Origin: Actinomycetes bacterium
GTDB lineage: Bacteria > Actinomycetota > Acidimicrobiia > Acidimicrobiales > Bog-793
Direction of reading: 5' to 3'
Length of the DNA: 64,000 nt
Assembly: GCA_021829645.1 (NCBI GenBank)
Contig: JAKBPI010000003.1
Span: 1-64,000, forward strand
Each line of letters starts with the position of its first letter. The stretch's first letter is position 1. A model generated the notes under the pieces. It was given only the letters and a program-made list of their open reading frames with translations. It was not told the DNA's origin and did not search any database. The position numbers and the translations under genes were made by a program. This document shows, one piece after another, positions 15,530-34,661 of the stretch.

Positions 15530-16330
15530 GTGATAAAATCATCGAAATCTATTAAAGTCATAATAGGGCTTCTTGGAGGAGCCGTTATCTTGGGCGGTTG
15601 TAACGCGCCCACTTTCGGTGCTTTCAGAGGGGCGACGACGCAGGGACATGATGAGTTCAAGCTCTGGGTCGGGTTTGCAATAGCCGGTATAGCCGTTGCA
15701 GCCATCGTTTGGGGGCTCATCTTTTGGGCGATAGCCAGGTATCGCCGCAAAGGAGACGAAATCCCCCGTCAATTTCACGAACATATTCCCTTGGAAATTA
15801 TCTATACTACGCTCCCCATCATCATCATCGGCGTGCTGTTTTACTTCACAGTGGTAACGGAAAACGAAGTAGATGCCGTTTCGAGCCACCCCAATGAAAT
15901 AGTTCATGTCTTGGCCTACAGGTGGGGATGGCGTTTTAGCTATTACGGTCAGAATAACAAGTCCCAGGGAGTCATGATCCAAACGGCGGCCGAACCCAAG
16001 TTATTGGCGCAACCGGCTACTTCCAGTCAGTATCCGCAGTTGGTTATACCTGAAGGCGAAACAGTCAGAATCGTTCTCAATTCGGCCGACGTCGTACACG
16101 GTTTCTATATACCGGCTTTCAATTTCAGCCGCTATGCGCTGCCCGGTGTAACAAATGTGTTTGATTTTACACCTACACAAATTGGTGTATTCAGAGGGCA
16201 ATGCAGCCAGTATTGTGGTTTATATCACTCAGAAATGTTGTTTAGTGTCAAGGTGGTATCACCCGGTGCCTTTACAAAATGGGTTAGTAGCCAGCAAATT
16301 ACCCAGAACCAGCCAGGAGGATCCAGATGA
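15530..16330 (+). CDS. ctaC: Cytochrome c oxidase subunit II
   Basis: The 266-residue protein starts at GTG and has a lipoprotein-type signal (LGGC, Cys24), two membrane segments (about 46-68 and 92-110) and a cupredoxin domain. The CuA ligands are His190, Cys225, Cys229, His233 and Met236. The residue between the two cysteines that is normally Glu (CxExC) is Gln227; in known structures that residue binds copper through its main-chain carbonyl, so function may be kept. It receives electrons from the bc1 complex and passes them to subunit I. The end overlaps ctaD by 4 bases (ATGA). Confidence 0.92.
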
Positions 16331-26659: not shown

Positions 26660-28060
26660 ATGGGTATATTTTCCAGAGGAAATAACCTAGTAAATAACAA
26701 AAGCAATAAAGTCAGTGGAGCTTCAGCTCTGTCGACGAACAAGACCATTGGGCGTTACAGAGAAGGACAAAAGCACAGAAGCGCTAAATTGCTGGTGATG
26801 CTGGCCGGTAGCGGTTCTCTCTTCCTGACGGCAAGTAATGCAGCATCTGTTGCTTCAAGCACTACCGCAAGTACGGTACAGCAGGTGTCGTTGTGGGAAT
26901 CCCACAACGGTCCTCCTGTAGGCACGGAGGAGAGTAGTTTGATTGCAAAGTTTAATGCCACACACAAAAATATCCACATAAACCTGTTTGTCACAAAGGC
27001 ATCATCCAAGCTCCAAGATGCTATTGCCGCAGGGGACCCTCCGGTTTTGGCTGAGATAAGCCACTATGACGGAGTCTATGTACAGGCAAACGCGCTCGTC
27101 TCTTGGAACAAGTTTTTCAAAGGCAGCTCCGTGATCAATCAAAAAAATATTATACCCAGCGTATGGGCCAACGGAGAAGTCAACGGACAGCATTACCGTA
27201 TTCAAGCTGACGCCAAGTTTTCAATCATCGAATACAATAAGAACTTGTTTGCCAAAGCACACATTTCTTCTCCGCCTAAGACTTGGGGTGAACTTGCAAC
27301 AGACGCAGCCAAAATTAAGGCACTGGGCCACGGAATCATACCAATCGGATGGAAGGATTCGTCAGCGCACATTCTTCCGGCTTTTGCAAGCAACGGAGGT
27401 TCCTGGTTAAAAGGCAGTATGAGCGTCGGCAATGCTGTTGACTTCAATACTCCCGCCGGAGTAAGAACGTTTTCTTACTTCCGTAACCTCTACGCTAAGG
27501 GCGAGTTGATCATAGATCACGGCACCGCCTTGAGAGAAGACCTTGCCGCTGGACACTTGGCCATGATTGACGCTACTTCCGCTGGCTACCAAAAAACTCT
27601 CATTGCTGTGGCAGGAAAGTTCCCCGTCGGAGCGTTTGTAGAGCCGGGAGGGACCACGGGACACGCATACAACTTGGATCAAGGTCTTGGTTTTGTCCTT
27701 CCCAAGGGAGCCACTCACGCTCAGGACGAAGCGGCATGGACGTTTGTACAATGGTGGTTTGAGCCGGCACAGCAAATCTCATGGGCCGAGGCAACCGGTT
27801 ACCCGCCTGAAACACACGCCGCCATCGCTGCCATGCCATCCTCATTTTTGGCAAAGCACCCCGGTGAAGTTGCCACAATCCAGGCGGCTGAGTCTCCGTA
27901 TTCTTACCCCAGGCCAGTGAACGATAACTACTCTGAGGTACAGGCGGCTCTCGATACGGCATTTTATAACGCCATTACCGGCAAACAATCCGTATCATCA
28001 GCGCTTGCACAATTAGATCAGTCAGGAACCTCCTACATGCACGGTACAAGTAAACTGTAA
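26660..28060 (+). CDS. Extracellular solute-binding protein of the CUT1 importer
   Basis: The 466-residue protein fits family 1 solute-binding proteins: beta strand VSLWESHNGPP, EESSLIAKFNATHKNI, and a late FVQWWFEPAQQISWAEATGYPP helix typical of UgpB/MalE-like proteins. The signal segment (LLVMLAGSGSLFLTASNAAS) starts only at about residue 48, after an unusually long basic leader with no lipobox Cys. An internal start would shorten it, but the best ribosome site (aaaggag) is before the tracked ATG. Ligand is a sugar, sugar alcohol or glycerol-phosphate by family; I cannot narrow it. Confidence 0.82.
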   Translation: MGIFSRGNNLVNNKSNKVSGASALSTNKTIGRYREGQKHRSAKLLVMLAGSGSLFLTASNAASVASSTTASTVQQVSLWESHNGPPVGTEESSLIAKFNATHKNIHINLFVTKASSKLQDAIAAGDPPVLAEISHYDGVYVQANALVSWNKFFKGSSVINQKNIIPSVWANGEVNGQHYRIQADAKFSIIEYNKNLFAKAHISSPPKTWGELATDAAKIKALGHGIIPIGWKDSSAHILPAFASNGGSWLKGSMSVGNAVDFNTPAGVRTFSYFRNLYAKGELIIDHGTALREDLAAGHLAMIDATSAGYQKTLIAVAGKFPVGAFVEPGGTTGHAYNLDQGLGFVLPKGATHAQDEAAWTFVQWWFEPAQQISWAEATGYPPETHAAIAAMPSSFLAKHPGEVATIQAAESPYSYPRPVNDNYSEVQAALDTAFYNAITGKQSVSSALAQLDQSGTSYMHGTSKL

Positions 28061-28240: not shown

Positions 28241-28714
28241 ATGGAAAACAACGATTTCACATCAACATCTTACGACGATAGCCACAGCCATAAATTGTCA
28301 AACGGTAAAACTGAATTAACATTGAATCAACTGGGTGAAGTACAACCAGGCATGGCGCGTTTGATGATTGAATTATCTACAAGAATGTCAACATGCTGGT
28401 GGGCAGCTAAGTATGAAAATTTTGATTTAGCGAGATACCAAATGAGCGAGAGTATTAAATTACTAAAGACGTCTGTCATCTTAAGACCAAAATATGGAGC
28501 AGACGTAATAGAATTTATTGAATCGTATTGCATAAAGTTGCGAGACTCACTTGTGAATCGCGACTTGGTACTGTTCACCGAATTGTTCAACGAAATGGTT
28601 ACGGTAGCGAACGAGCTTCATGAAAAATATGGTAAAGGGTATTTGATCTGGAAAGTTCCATCCACTCCTCCGGGAGATCTGGATCTTCGACCCCGTCAGA
28701 CCGTGGAAGACTAG
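28241..28714 (+). CDS. Conserved helical protein of unknown function
   Basis: The 157-residue protein has LGEVQPGMARLMIELSTRM, WWAAKYENFDLARYQMSE and a C-terminal YLIWKVPSTPPGDLDLRP. I recall a family of small, mostly helical proteins with the same pattern (PGMARLM, YYAAKxGNWxLA, VWKLPxxPPxDLDL) in varied bacteria and archaea, with no known function. No signal peptide or membrane segment is visible. It stands alone with a ribosome site ttaagga upstream. Confidence 0.65.
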   Translation: MENNDFTSTSYDDSHSHKLSNGKTELTLNQLGEVQPGMARLMIELSTRMSTCWWAAKYENFDLARYQMSESIKLLKTSVILRPKYGADVIEFIESYCIKLRDSLVNRDLVLFTELFNEMVTVANELHEKYGKGYLIWKVPSTPPGDLDLRPRQTVED

Positions 28715-29338: not shown

Positions 29339-30877
29339 TTAACCAACCCAGGATACTAAAGTTCGTTTCTTTTTATAAGAAAATAATATGCCTAAGGACG
29401 CCATGACGATTGCAATGATTACGGTAGGAGCGCTGCCGGTGTCATCGTATAAAGTGTACTGCGTTCTATAGCCAAGACGTGCGTAAATAACTGTCTGTCG
29501 CCCCAATTGGCTGAGTTCTGTTACGGAGCCACGCGGCGTGACGGCAGCAGAATAACCCGTAGTGGCCGCCTGTAGTAAAGAACGTCCTTCCGATACCGCC
29601 TGGATTTTTGAGGCTGAAAGTTCTTGGGAGGGCACTTGGGCAGAGGCATATGATGCGGTATTAGTGGCGACAAAAAGTATTTGGCCGCCGGCCATCACTC
29701 CTGACCTACCCCTGTGTGTAAAAAATGTTTCGTAGGAGATCAATAAGGCAAGCTTACCAAAAGGGGTTTTGATCATTCCGCTGCCGTGTCCGCTGACGGC
29801 ATCTTTGGGCACGGCGGAGAGGTTGGCAAATTTTGCAAAAAAACTTCTGTCCGGAATATATTCTCCAAAGGGGACCAAATGTACTTTTTCAAATTCGGCT
29901 ACAATTTTTCCCTGTGGCGAAAAAGCTACTAATTTATTGTAAAAATGCTTAGGTCCGTCGGGGGCGACAAATCCCGCAATGAGCACGGCATGGAGTCGCA
30001 ATGCTTGTCCGCTGACTTCCGGGGTCAATGAAGACGTATCAATGCCGGAGTTGACCGATACGGTATCTTCCGGCCATAGGAGTATGCGTACGGCAGAAGA
30101 TAGCGGTACTTTTTTTGTCTCCGCTAAGGTAACGTCAAAAACACGCTTTTTGGCGAGATTGGTGGGCGTGTTGCCAAGTCCTCTTGCTCCTCCGCCTTGA
30201 ATGGCAGCAACTTTTATGTAGTGCGTAGGTTTTCCGCCGTCCGGTGCGAAAATGGAAAAAGTGATAACTCCCGTCAAGGTAGCTAAAAACAATAGTGAGA
30301 GAAGCAGTTGTCGCGGCTCTGTTTTGGAGTTTGCTCTGTGTAAAAGTAAAGTTTTGCAGAGAAAAGCTGCATATGATGCAACAAGGTAAACAAAAAAGAC
30401 AATTAGGATGGGTCCCCCAAGACGCGCCAAATTAATGAGCCAGTCGTTGGTTTGACCGAGTGCCAAAGAGCCTATGGGGAGACCTCCGAAAGGCCAATGA
30501 TCTCTGGCATATTCGGCAAGACAAAAAAAAGCCGGGAGGGTGAGAGACCTGTATTTTCCGGGCACTGTTGCCAGCCAACCGGCAACGCCGAAAAATAAGG
30601 ATTCTACGACGACTAAGACTAAGTATCCTACGGCAGTAAAGTAATTTGCCCAAAGTAGCCCCAAAATGAACTGTCCGACGGCAAAAGAAAAACCTATAAA
30701 AAAAGCCCGGTTTTTGCTCATTGATGAATAAGACAAAATAAAAAATAAGATCGCAACGGAAATAAAGGGCATGATCCATAAATTGATCGGGGGTAGGGAC
30801 AAAGCAGCCAGCACTCCGCATAAAAGTGCGATCAAGCACAGTAGAACTGACTTCTTAAAGGACCCCTTTTCTTTCAC
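29339..30877 (-). CDS. lnt: Apolipoprotein N-acyltransferase homologue with Ser at the nucleophile position
   Basis: The 512-residue protein has several N-terminal membrane segments followed by a nitrilase-type domain (about 220-490). Family catalytic residues align as Glu270 in LLWPEDTV and Lys331 in FEKVHLVPFGEYIP, but the ICYE motif that holds the nucleophilic Cys reads ISYE, giving Ser381. Lnt transfers a third acyl chain to lipoproteins. With Ser instead of Cys the normal thioester intermediate cannot form, so it may use an oxyester, act on another substrate, or be inactive. It is the last gene of a hem cluster and overlaps hemY by 4 bases. Confidence 0.82.
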   Translation of the reverse strand: MKEKGSFKKSVLLCLIALLCGVLAALSLPPINLWIMPFISVAILFFILSYSSMSKNRAFFIGFSFAVGQFILGLLWANYFTAVGYLVLVVVESLFFGVAGWLATVPGKYRSLTLPAFFCLAEYARDHWPFGGLPIGSLALGQTNDWLINLARLGGPILIVFFVYLVASYAAFLCKTLLLHRANSKTEPRQLLLSLLFLATLTGVITFSIFAPDGGKPTHYIKVAAIQGGGARGLGNTPTNLAKKRVFDVTLAETKKVPLSSAVRILLWPEDTVSVNSGIDTSSLTPEVSGQALRLHAVLIAGFVAPDGPKHFYNKLVAFSPQGKIVAEFEKVHLVPFGEYIPDRSFFAKFANLSAVPKDAVSGHGSGMIKTPFGKLALLISYETFFTHRGRSGVMAGGQILFVATNTASYASAQVPSQELSASKIQAVSEGRSLLQAATTGYSAAVTPRGSVTELSQLGRQTVIYARLGYRTQYTLYDDTGSAPTVIIAIVMASLGILFSYKKKRTLVSWVG

Positions 30878-32361
30878 TGAAGGGCGCTACTCAGTTTATC
30901 GGCTGCAGCAATTCCATCGCTGATGCAGGCCGGTATGCCTATACCGTGATAGGAAGCTCCGGCAAGGGAGAGAGTGGGTATAGCTGCCGTCATGGAGTCA
31001 ATTTTCATAATTCTTTCGATGTGACCCGTATTGTATTGCGGAAAAGCATTTTCCCAGCGAAACAGCAAATTCTCAATTGGATCTTTGGCGATACCGAGTA
31101 TGGATTTGGTGTCTTTGATCATGGCGGAAGTAAGAGTTTCATCATCGAGTGTCGTGACACGGTCATCTGAGTAGTGACCGGCTGATATTTTTAACCATAC
31201 TTCGCCCGTATCTGAGAGGTGTGTCCATTTAGAGCTTAGAGTTGTCACTCCGGTGATGAGTTTTTTGGGCTTGCGGGCAACTAAAAATCCTGTGCCGTAA
31301 ATCGGAGGCATCTCATCAGCATTCCAGGCCGCCAGCAAAGTAGCTACGCTGGAAAAAGGTATTTCTTGGCACAGAGAAGCTATTTCCGGGAGCGCTTTTG
31401 CCAGCAAGTCAGCCGTAGCAAAAGCGGGCAGGGCCAGGATGAGGCCGTCAAAGTAAACTTTTTCTTCAGACATGTTATTTTGGCGGATAGAGACCTCCCA
31501 GTGTTTGGTGTCGCGTGGCAGCAAGGCTATCTCGGTTGCCTGTACTCCAAGTGAGATGTTGACACCGGCAGCAAGCAGATTTTCGGTGAGACTTTCCGTG
31601 AGGGAGGCCAGAGAAGTGTTCAAACCCAAGAAAGGTGGCGTAGTAGTTTTTAACTTTCCGCCGGGGGATGCCTGTCGCTTGTAGTTCCTTAGAGATAAGA
31701 CGATGCTTCTTTTTTCAGAAACTGCTCTGGCCAGTTCCGGTGTGGTCGCGGCAAAGGACAGGTGATTGATGTCTCCGGCGTTGATACCGGCAATCAAAGG
31801 CGCTATGAGGCGCTCAACCGTTTCTTTGCCAAGTCTTTTATTGAGTAGCCGGCCGATGCTTGGATCGGGATATCCGACCGGAGGAAGCGACGCCTCGGTG
31901 TTCTCCGCCGCATCGAGAAGAGCGGTAAAGCTCGGCAGCTTTGCCGGCCAAAAAAAGTCCGTTGCCGATCTCAGGGCCGATAGGGGGGAAACGATTTGGG
32001 AAGAAAGTACCGAGATAAGGTTTGTGGGAATTCCCAGTGCCAAATCTATGGGCAGTTTGCGAAGTTGTCCTCGCGAGTAAAGAGAAGCACCTTGTCGGGC
32101 AGGTGCTACCAAGTGTTCAGACAAATTGAGTTTTGAAGCGAGATCGACTGCCGAAGTGTTTCTCGTCAAAAAAGAATCCGGTCCTACGTCGACTTTTTTA
32201 CCCCTGAAGTCAACGGAATGTAATTTGCCACCGGTTCTGGAGGAAGTTTCAAGGAGGGTCACATTAAAAAGACCGTGTAGTTTATAAGCGGCACTTAGCC
32301 CAGTGATACCGGCTCCGATAATCAAAATGTCTTTTTTGTTTTGTCCTGTCTGACTCGGCAT
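30874..32361 (-). CDS. hemY: Protoporphyrinogen/coproporphyrinogen III oxidase, HemY type
   Basis: The 495-residue flavoprotein begins with a dinucleotide-binding motif IIGAGITGLSAAY (Gly16, Gly18, Gly21), continues with an HSVDFRGKKVDVGPDSFL stretch typical of HemY, and ends with the FAD-contact motif LAGASYHGIGIPACISDG. In actinobacteria this family usually works in the coproporphyrin-dependent branch, oxidising coproporphyrinogen III (name cgoX). It lies between hemH and lnt; the overlap with lnt suggests one mRNA. Confidence 0.88.
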   Translation of the reverse strand: MPSQTGQNKKDILIIGAGITGLSAAYKLHGLFNVTLLETSSRTGGKLHSVDFRGKKVDVGPDSFLTRNTSAVDLASKLNLSEHLVAPARQGASLYSRGQLRKLPIDLALGIPTNLISVLSSQIVSPLSALRSATDFFWPAKLPSFTALLDAAENTEASLPPVGYPDPSIGRLLNKRLGKETVERLIAPLIAGINAGDINHLSFAATTPELARAVSEKRSIVLSLRNYKRQASPGGKLKTTTPPFLGLNTSLASLTESLTENLLAAGVNISLGVQATEIALLPRDTKHWEVSIRQNNMSEEKVYFDGLILALPAFATADLLAKALPEIASLCQEIPFSSVATLLAAWNADEMPPIYGTGFLVARKPKKLITGVTTLSSKWTHLSDTGEVWLKISAGHYSDDRVTTLDDETLTSAMIKDTKSILGIAKDPIENLLFRWENAFPQYNTGHIERIMKIDSMTAAIPTLSLAGASYHGIGIPACISDGIAAADKLSSALQ

Positions 32362-32436: not shown

Positions 32437-33519
32437 CTACTCCTTTTCCGTCAGTGAAGTGTCATGAATTAATTGAGCTAACGAGTTCATGACAGAGATG
32501 TCGTCGTTGACGGACCGTGTCCTGGAAAGCGATACCGAAATTTTACCCGCTAAGTCTTGAGCGGCTATGTCTATGTCGTAAAGCACTTCCAGGTGATCAG
32601 ACATGAAACCAGCCGGGCAGATAATAATATTTCTTATGCCCCGTTCTCCCATGTCGCTTAGCACCTCCAAGATGTCAGGACCCAACCAAATTTGTGAAGT
32701 CCTTCCGGCACTCTGCCAGGCAATTTGCCATCCAATTTCTATGTCGGACTCTTCTGTATATGCGTAGAACCCTTTACGGAGTGCGGTGACATTATTTGTC
32801 ATCCTGTCAGCCATTTCGAAAAGCGGTATGAATTCATATTCAGAGCCCAGTCCGATTTGGCGGGCAATCTTTTCCGCCGTTGACCTGAGTTGTTCCGGAT
32901 AGGGATCCCCCATCGAAATAACTGTGGCGGGAAGGCTGTGGGCAGTAATTAAGACGACCATGCGCGACGGCTTTTTAGAGGCAGACGTATCATTTTCCGC
33001 TTTTCTGATGTCGGTAGCGTGAATGAGCACTTGAGACAGTATTTGGTTCGAGAGGAACTCTATGAGTGCTTCGTCCAAAGCAAAAGACTTGATAAATTGA
33101 CACTCAATTCCATGTCGGGAAGCTGCCTCTTGTGCTTTTGTCATGTATTCGCCTATGCTCAGCTGCGAGTAGTGAGGAGCAAAAACCATGCCTATAAAGG
33201 CTGTTATTCCTTCATCGGCAAAACCTTTGACCGCTTCTTCTATGGCGGGTTTTGAGTGTTTGGTTGCATAGAGGACAAAGTATTTTTCAGTATAGAGTTC
33301 TTCCAGGCGATCAGTAATTTTCTTAACCTGTGCCAATGTCCTTTCGGTCAATGGCGAGAGGCCACCTATCATCGCATATCTGTCGGAAAGCTCCGTCAAT
33401 TGTTCAGGGGTCGGAGGCCTACCTCGCCTTACGTCCGTATAAAACGGCAAGATATCATCTTGGGAGACGGGTGTGCCGTAAGACATGAGTAATACGCCTA
33501 TACGTTGATTTGTGTCCAT
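32437..33519 (-). CDS. hemH: Ferrochelatase, probably coproporphyrin type
   Basis: The 360-residue protein opens with GVLLMSYGTP, and contains YATKHSKPAIEEA, the active-site ITAHSLPATV His and the CPAGFMSDHLEVLYDID motif, all of the ferrochelatase family. It inserts Fe2+ into the porphyrin; in actinobacteria the usual substrate is coproporphyrin III (CpfC). The order hemE-hemH-hemY matches common Gram-positive clusters. A ChdC/HemQ gene, needed for the last step of that branch, is not in the window. Confidence 0.9.
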   Translation of the reverse strand: MDTNQRIGVLLMSYGTPVSQDDILPFYTDVRRGRPPTPEQLTELSDRYAMIGGLSPLTERTLAQVKKITDRLEELYTEKYFVLYATKHSKPAIEEAVKGFADEGITAFIGMVFAPHYSQLSIGEYMTKAQEAASRHGIECQFIKSFALDEALIEFLSNQILSQVLIHATDIRKAENDTSASKKPSRMVVLITAHSLPATVISMGDPYPEQLRSTAEKIARQIGLGSEYEFIPLFEMADRMTNNVTALRKGFYAYTEESDIEIGWQIAWQSAGRTSQIWLGPDILEVLSDMGERGIRNIIICPAGFMSDHLEVLYDIDIAAQDLAGKISVSLSRTRSVNDDISVMNSLAQLIHDTSLTEKE

Positions 33520-33560: not shown

Positions 33561-34661
33561 TTACGGTTGGACGTCATCGGAAGTCGAATCATAATTCCTG
33601 ACGAAATCTACCAATCGCGTCAAGGTATCGGGATCGGTTTCGGGTAACACCCCGTGTCCCAAGTTGAAGATATGACCGCGGTGAAAAGAAGGAGAGACGC
33701 TTTTCTCATGCGGTGCACTTCGGCGTTTTGCATCTCGTAAAATTCTGCCGGCTTCTCTGGCTACCGTATCAAAAGAGGTCAGACAGATAGCGGGGTCTAA
33801 ATTTCCCTGAATGGCTTGATTTTCGCTGAGCAAGGGCGAGACTTTATCTAAGGGGATGCGCCAGTCAACAGAGAGGACATCGGGACCTGTCGATGCCATG
33901 AGATCCAAGATAGCGCTGGTGCCTACGCCAAAGTGAATTTTAGGCAAGGAAGTGCCGAAATTTTTTGTCAATGCGTCAAAGATTTTTTTTGAAAACGGCC
34001 ATACGTATTCCTGGTAATCATATCTGGAAAGAGATCCGGCCCAGGAATCAAACAGCTGTATAGCATGGACACCTGCCGTGATCTGAGCCGAAAGACTGGC
34101 AATAATAAGGTCGGACAGCTTATCCATCAATGGCGACCAAAACTCCGGGAGCGTATGCATAAGCGTTTTTGTTTTGATGAAATTTCTGGACGGCTTACCT
34201 TCTACTAAGTAAGAGGCTATCGTGAAAGGTGCTCCGGCAAATCCTATTATCGGAACGCGGCAGTCTTTTTTCAGTAAAGCTATTGTTTCTTGAACGTAAG
34301 GGGCATCCTCTTCCGGCTCATATTTTCTGATGCGATCGAGATCGGACACCTTGGCAAAAGGTTTTTCTATCACCGGCCCCACATTCGGTAAAATATCCAG
34401 TTCTAGGCCTATTGCCTTCAGAGGAACCATGATGTCTGAGAATAAGACTGCGGCATCTACGTCATATCTTTTGACCGGTTGCAGAGTGAGTTCTGCTGCC
34501 AACTCCGGATTTTTGACGGTTTCTAAGATGGATAGAGTTCCGCGTGCCAGGCGGTATTCCGGCAATGACCGGCCGGCTTGGCGCATGAACCAAACGGGAG
34601 TGCGGTCCACCGGTTGATTCAGGCATGCTTTGATAAAACGTGAGTTGTCGGGTGAGTCCAT
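33561..34661 (-). CDS. hemE: Uroporphyrinogen III decarboxylase
   Basis: The 366-residue protein has the N-terminal signature PVWFMRQAGRSLPEYR, AAVLFSDIMVP with the catalytic Asp, GFAGAPFTIASYL and the C-terminal FNLGHGVLPETDP motif. It removes four carboxyl groups from uroporphyrinogen III. It is the first gene of the minus-strand hem cluster, 41 bases ahead of hemH. The 289-base gap to ctaE is a divergent promoter region linking heme supply and respiratory chain genes. Confidence 0.93.
   Translation of the reverse strand: MDSPDNSRFIKACLNQPVDRTPVWFMRQAGRSLPEYRLARGTLSILETVKNPELAAELTLQPVKRYDVDAAVLFSDIMVPLKAIGLELDILPNVGPVIEKPFAKVSDLDRIRKYEPEEDAPYVQETIALLKKDCRVPIIGFAGAPFTIASYLVEGKPSRNFIKTKTLMHTLPEFWSPLMDKLSDLIIASLSAQITAGVHAIQLFDSWAGSLSRYDYQEYVWPFSKKIFDALTKNFGTSLPKIHFGVGTSAILDLMASTGPDVLSVDWRIPLDKVSPLLSENQAIQGNLDPAICLTSFDTVAREAGRILRDAKRRSAPHEKSVSPSFHRGHIFNLGHGVLPETDPDTLTRLVDFVRNYDSTSDDVQP

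Follow-up and report, generated by a model that had tools for sequence, protein, structure and literature searches.

The 64,000-nucleotide stretch of DNA analysed here, hereafter the window, carries on its minus strand, at positions 29339..30877, a gene of 512 codons with a GTG start for a homologue of apolipoprotein N-acyltransferase (Lnt), in which a serine, Ser381, occupies the place of the catalytic cysteine. Judged by its sequence and predicted fold, the protein is a serine-type member of the Lnt family, departing from the standard Cys-type enzyme. We consider it probable, at roughly two chances in three, that the gene encodes a functional Lnt in which Ser381 replaces cysteine as the nucleophile and carries the acyl chain as an oxyester intermediate. 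In this explanation the activity, the oxyester intermediate and the use of lipoproteins as acceptor are the parts that we infer, the activity from the fixation of serine, its repeated origin, an intact site, the lack of a thiol in the domain, purifying selection and the usual status of the Ser-type enzyme as the sole Lnt of its genome. Lnt attaches the third fatty acid of bacterial lipoproteins; its catalytic cysteine is regarded as indispensable, and a natural serine form has so far been taken as a sign of inactivity.

A sequence-only reading of the window had described this open reading frame, giving no strand, as an Lnt with ISYE in place of ICYE. The frame is real and the residue numbers given for it (Glu270, Lys331, Ser381) are exact; the exchange is borne out by a phmmer alignment, in which Ser381 (codon TCC, 29735..29737, minus strand) pairs gap-free with the catalytic Cys387 of E. 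coli Lnt. That reading had also held the remaining core to be intact, and indeed Glu270 (30068..30070), the equivalent of the E. coli general base Glu267, Lys331 (29885..29887; E. coli Lys335), Glu339 (29861..29863; Glu343), Tyr382 (Tyr388 in the alignment) and Glu383 (29729..29731; Glu389) are all present, while Glu419 (29621..29623) stands in the column of the E. coli active-site His425, all codons being on the minus strand. The protein scores 170.8 bits against TIGR00546 (curated cut-off 132.9) and joins an LNT_N membrane domain (PF20154, residues 21-168) to a CN_hydrolase (nitrilase) domain (PF00795, residues 287-468). Its AlphaFold2 model (pLDDT 94.4, pTM 0.94) places Ser381 at the nucleophile elbow, as the first helix residue after strand 374-380. 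A Foldseek search with this model returned Lnt structures as all of its top PDB matches, at a TM-score of about 0.8. The best PDB hit, 5vrh, is the E. coli C387S mutant, which likewise reads ISYE. Profile score, domain fusion, fold, the catalytic Glu and Lys, and the equivalents of the essential Glu343 and Glu389 therefore place the protein in the Lnt family. In contrast, the Cys387 on which that family forms its thioester acyl-enzyme, like the Cys nucleophile of the Glu-Lys-Cys nitrilase superfamily, is replaced by Ser381, and the nitrilase domain of the window Lnt holds no cysteine at all. Compared with the E. coli and P. aeruginosa enzymes (Glu267-Lys335-Cys387; PDB 5n6h, 5vrg, 6nwr and 8b0k-p), it thus has the same full-length fold (TM about 0.8), the same membrane and nitrilase domains and the equivalents of the Glu, the Lys, Glu343 and Glu389, but differs in its serine at the nucleophile position, in Glu419 for His425, and in an overall identity of only about 20%.

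The catalytic column was compared in 289 Lnts, nearly all of them actinobacterial, drawn from surveys of the class and the phylum together with 80 named loci of public genomes. Cysteine fills this column in 154 sequences and serine in 135, with no third residue; a cysteine emerging on realignment and random residues among homologues, the two outcomes that the sequence-only reading had set against its own claim, were both looked for and neither appeared. Homologue alignment, which that reading had proposed, showed the serine to be conserved across the order Acidimicrobiales, in 29 of the 29 same-order relatives first examined (30 of 30 loci with the window's own), and the Lnt was of Ser type in every sampled family of this order, named carriers including Acidimicrobiaceae, Ilumatobacteraceae and Candidatus Microthrix; it is from these named matches that the order is read as Acidimicrobiales and the class as Acidimicrobiia. 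No second Lnt, of Cys type or otherwise, was found in the window genome (94% complete), which has one Lnt in total. Among 195 surveyed genomes, some of the relatives having been searched by the window protein in place of the family model, 104 carry Ser-type Lnt only (one copy in 103, two copies in 1), and two mycobacteria each carry one Ser-type and one Cys-type Lnt. Both serine codon families, TCN and AGC, are present at the catalytic site within a lineage. Among the named matches, the non-actinobacterial Lnts have cysteine, with the exception of L195, from a metagenome-assembled genome labelled Acidobacteria (REEB451); its Lnt groups with the Acidimicrobiia Ser type and its hem cluster is Acidimicrobiales-like, and the genome is probably misnamed. 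In the open-access literature we found no report of a Ser-type Lnt outside mycobacteria, be it in Acidimicrobiia or in genomes where it is the sole Lnt.

The distribution of the two residues was set against a maximum-likelihood tree of 89 Lnt sequences, from which the catalytic column and the His425 column had been left out. This tree requires five changes between cysteine and serine (bootstrap range 5-5), and its Ser-type sequences comprise (1) the Acidimicrobiales, (2) other orders of Acidimicrobiia (families f24, f27, f29, f32, f35, f40, f43 and f44) together with f80 and some f87 genomes from another class, (3) the family f50 of another class, and (4) the second Lnt of mycobacteria (f72). 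A single origin of all Ser-type Lnts is ruled out (AU p 2.5e-45); at least three origins are needed and there were probably four, separate origins of groups (1) and (2) being weakly favoured (AU p 0.041, with the groups picked after the tree had been seen). The sequence-only reading had suggested a lineage-specific variant chemistry, of which the variant chemistry is well supported by the fixed serine, the otherwise intact site, the usual lack of any other Lnt and the missing thiol, whereas the restriction to one lineage does not hold, given several origins in the phylum. Nested inside group (2) are the Cys-type sequences of f38 (AU p 0.026, a weak result, again with groups picked after the tree had been seen), which retain the Phe of that group at the His425 column as well as its extra pair of cysteines (see below); f38 is probably a return from serine to cysteine. 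In the genus g75, one genome (G114) has a Cys-type Lnt, while another (G066) has, as its only Lnt, a Ser-type enzyme that groups inside Acidimicrobiales (L142 in L294, G066:C8). Contamination is an unlikely source of the latter, since a gene close by on its contig is 83% identical to a gene in a third g75 genome, and a horizontal replacement is likely. Both types are also present in f87. Going by f38, g75 and f87, the Ser and Cys enzymes appear interchangeable, and their exchange inside lineages supports an equal function of both types.

Several features of the sequences bear on activity. The equivalents of Glu267, Lys335, Glu343, Pro346 and Glu389 are invariant in 82 of 82 Ser-type and 88 of 88 Cys-type Lnts, and positions of the membrane domain, for example the Gly145 column, are retained in the Ser types. 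The nitrilase domain is free of cysteine in 74 of the 77 Lnts of the window's lineage, group (1), and in all 10 of the f50 Lnts, and has exactly one cysteine in 136 of 153 Cys-type Lnts. With a Cys-free domain in the window's lineage, an acyl-enzyme, if made, cannot be a thioester, and a neighbouring cysteine standing in as the nucleophile is excluded there. The dN/dS ratio of close pairs was 0.05-0.27 in 10 of 11 Ser-type pairs and 0.09-0.29 in three Cys-type pairs, and thus similar in the two types; the eleventh Ser-type pair, the diverged L161/L162 (52% identical), gave 0.76. The Ser-type lnt genes are under purifying selection. Loss of function should, moreover, admit other residues, so that a column occupied by cysteine or serine alone argues for retained function.

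In E. coli Lnt, Glu267 activates Cys387, whose thiolate is acylated with the sn-1 chain of a phospholipid, and this chain then passes to the amine of the apolipoprotein (PMC8048626, PMC6971011); His425 adjoins Cys387 (PMC5500888). In the window enzyme, Glu270 would deprotonate Ser381, ester exchange with a membrane phospholipid would leave the acyl chain on Ser381 as an oxyester, and the alpha-amine of the diacylglyceryl-cysteine of the apolipoprotein would then attack the Ser381 ester, with Lys331, Glu339 and the remainder of the site acting as in a Cys-type Lnt. The second step, aminolysis of an oxyester, is the chemically more demanding one. This fits the behaviour of the E. coli C387S mutant, which, according to the passage in PMC3850990 that cites the original work, forms the acyl-enzyme with undetectable Lnt function, and which is elsewhere termed 'low activity' (PMC10313180). 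The mutant (PDB 5vrh, 8b0m) has the same residue at the nucleophile position as the window Lnt, but is a laboratory mutation without compensating changes. Its lack of detectable function indicates that the chemistry would be no simple Cys-to-Ser swap, and that Ser lineages would need further changes to make up for it in the second step. That activity can be regained after a nucleophile exchange through other mutations is described for the Cys-to-Ser directed evolution of TEV protease (PMC4576821), a case which differs in its unrelated fold and reaction and in being laboratory evolution. From the alignment, the His425 column is one candidate region for a compensating change: in group (1) the residue there is Glu or Gln, in group (2) almost always Leu, Phe or Met, and in Cys-type Actinomycetia Gln, and the Ser-type f50 keeps His. 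Although most Ser types lack His425, its loss as the cause of the switch to serine was discarded, being neither necessary (f50 has His) nor sufficient (Cys-type Actinomycetia have Gln).

The sole published natural Ser-type Lnt that we found in the open-access literature is the mycobacterial BCG_2279c, a C387-to-S case published in 2013. It could not substitute for the Cys-type Lnt on four lipoproteins and was judged probably inactive, an N-acylating function being considered improbable (PMC3850990). BCG_2279c (and Rv2262c-Rv2261c) and the window protein are both Lnt homologues in which serine naturally replaces cysteine. However, BCG_2279c belongs to a separate Ser branch and accompanies a functional Cys-Lnt as an additional copy, whereas the Ser type is the sole Lnt of the window's order. 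L256 and L257, the second Lnts of mycobacteria in the present sample, likewise have serine, exact orthology to BCG_2279c not being implied. The missing N-acylation of four lipoproteins by BCG_2279c, together with an E. coli C387S acyl-enzyme that, in the same passage of PMC3850990, shows no detectable transfer, would also fit Ser-type enzymes that form the acyl-enzyme and pass the chain to a non-lipoprotein amine or hydroxyl, or to water, leaving lipoproteins diacylated. Such a different acceptor, the other option named in the sequence-only reading, which the divergent Lgt of the window's family could accommodate in that its lipoprotein pathway may be unusual, is a possibility that we take seriously and yet hold to be unlikely. 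The Acidimicrobiales families f7, f19 and f6 pair a Ser-type Lnt with a canonical-scoring Lgt, membrane positions of the Gly145-column type are kept in the Ser types, the two types appear to have replaced one another in f38, g75 and f87, which speaks for a shared task, and the window's lineage provides no positive evidence for another acceptor.

As regards the rest of the lipoprotein pathway, a search of 148 Acidimicrobiia genomes found Lgt in 143, and the window genome has both Lgt and LspA (the latter having been looked for in this genome alone); finding Lgt alongside the Ser-type Lnt is no proof that the latter acylates lipoproteins. A lipobox that had been noticed in subunit II is confirmed, as the cytochrome oxidase subunit II encoded at 15530..16330 (plus strand) carries ...AVILGGC, with the lipobox LGGC, and is a candidate lipoprotein substrate. 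An ABC-type solute-binding protein (PF13416; window 26660-28060, plus strand) has an N-terminal hydrophobic stretch without a lipobox cysteine, which is unusual for a monoderm sugar-binding protein. The only Lgt homologue of the window genome (L093 / L310, G000:C12:127081-127728, outside the window) is divergent and scores below the TIGR00544 cut-off; the columns of E. coli His103, Asn146 and Tyr235 hold Tyr, Pro and Trp, respectively, and the motif is GRLLGPQLMYSGGG. This divergent type is found throughout f1 and also in f9, f18, f20 and f21, while the Lgt of f7 and f19 scores higher. It is a speculative idea, and in our view a rather improbable one, that in Acidimicrobiaceae the divergent Lgt (Tyr/Phe at His103, Pro at Asn146) and the Ser-type Lnt jointly build a non-classical N-terminus, that is, one with a lipid or acyl acceptor other than the classical triacyl form. 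In some highly complete Acidimicrobiales genomes of the families f18 and f20 (G052, G093, G139 and most g46 genomes), there is no Lnt above the cut-off and a divergent Lgt is kept; the gene content of these Lnt-less genomes suggests that N-acylation has been lost.

The Ser-type proteins could, finally, be Lnt homologues that have lost catalysis and persist in some structural or regulatory function, in keeping with E. coli C387S being a very poor Lnt and with the merely contributory role that PMC3850990 favours for BCG_2279c. We find this hard to credit, since the catalytic Glu, Lys and Glu are still invariant, an inactive site would be expected to tolerate further residues besides serine (none among 135) and most genomes are without an active Cys paralogue. 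That the serine is an artefact of sequencing, assembly or alignment is refuted by its occurrence in well over 100 independent assemblies, by the two codon families and by the gap-free alignment.

If the Ser-type Lnts work, as in our preferred reading of Ser381 as an acylating nucleophile, the nucleophile of a membrane acyltransferase would have been swapped several times in nature, and apparently once reversed. The related enzyme sets would then lend themselves to finding what lets an oxyester pass its acyl chain to an amine, and inhibitors with thiol-reactive warheads, as well as annotation that requires the cysteine, would miss these enzymes.

The gene upstream of lnt, with a 4-base overlap at the lnt start, encodes a hemY/hemG-type protoporphyrinogen oxidase (30874..32361; TIGR00562), and is preceded by hemH for ferrochelatase (32437..33519; TIGR00109) and hemE for uroporphyrinogen decarboxylase (33561..34661; TIGR01464), all on the minus strand and all above the respective cut-offs, which gives the cluster order hemE-hemH-hemY-lnt. 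In most of the other Acidimicrobiales loci checked, hemY and lnt again stand together, frequently accompanied by hemH and hemE, and this recurrence supports the Lnts of this order as one orthologous gene. An open reading frame of 157 amino acids adjoining lnt (window 28241-28714, plus strand) had no match in Pfam or NCBIfam. With regard to the cysteines of group (2), an invariant pair, PC...C with a spacing of 3-7 residues, is carried by all 46 of its Ser-type Lnts (for example L118, L133, L138, L148 and L161) as well as by the two Cys-type Lnts of f38. It lies close to where E. coli has Trp237, in the loop that follows the first nitrilase-domain strand, and might form a disulfide that covers the active site.
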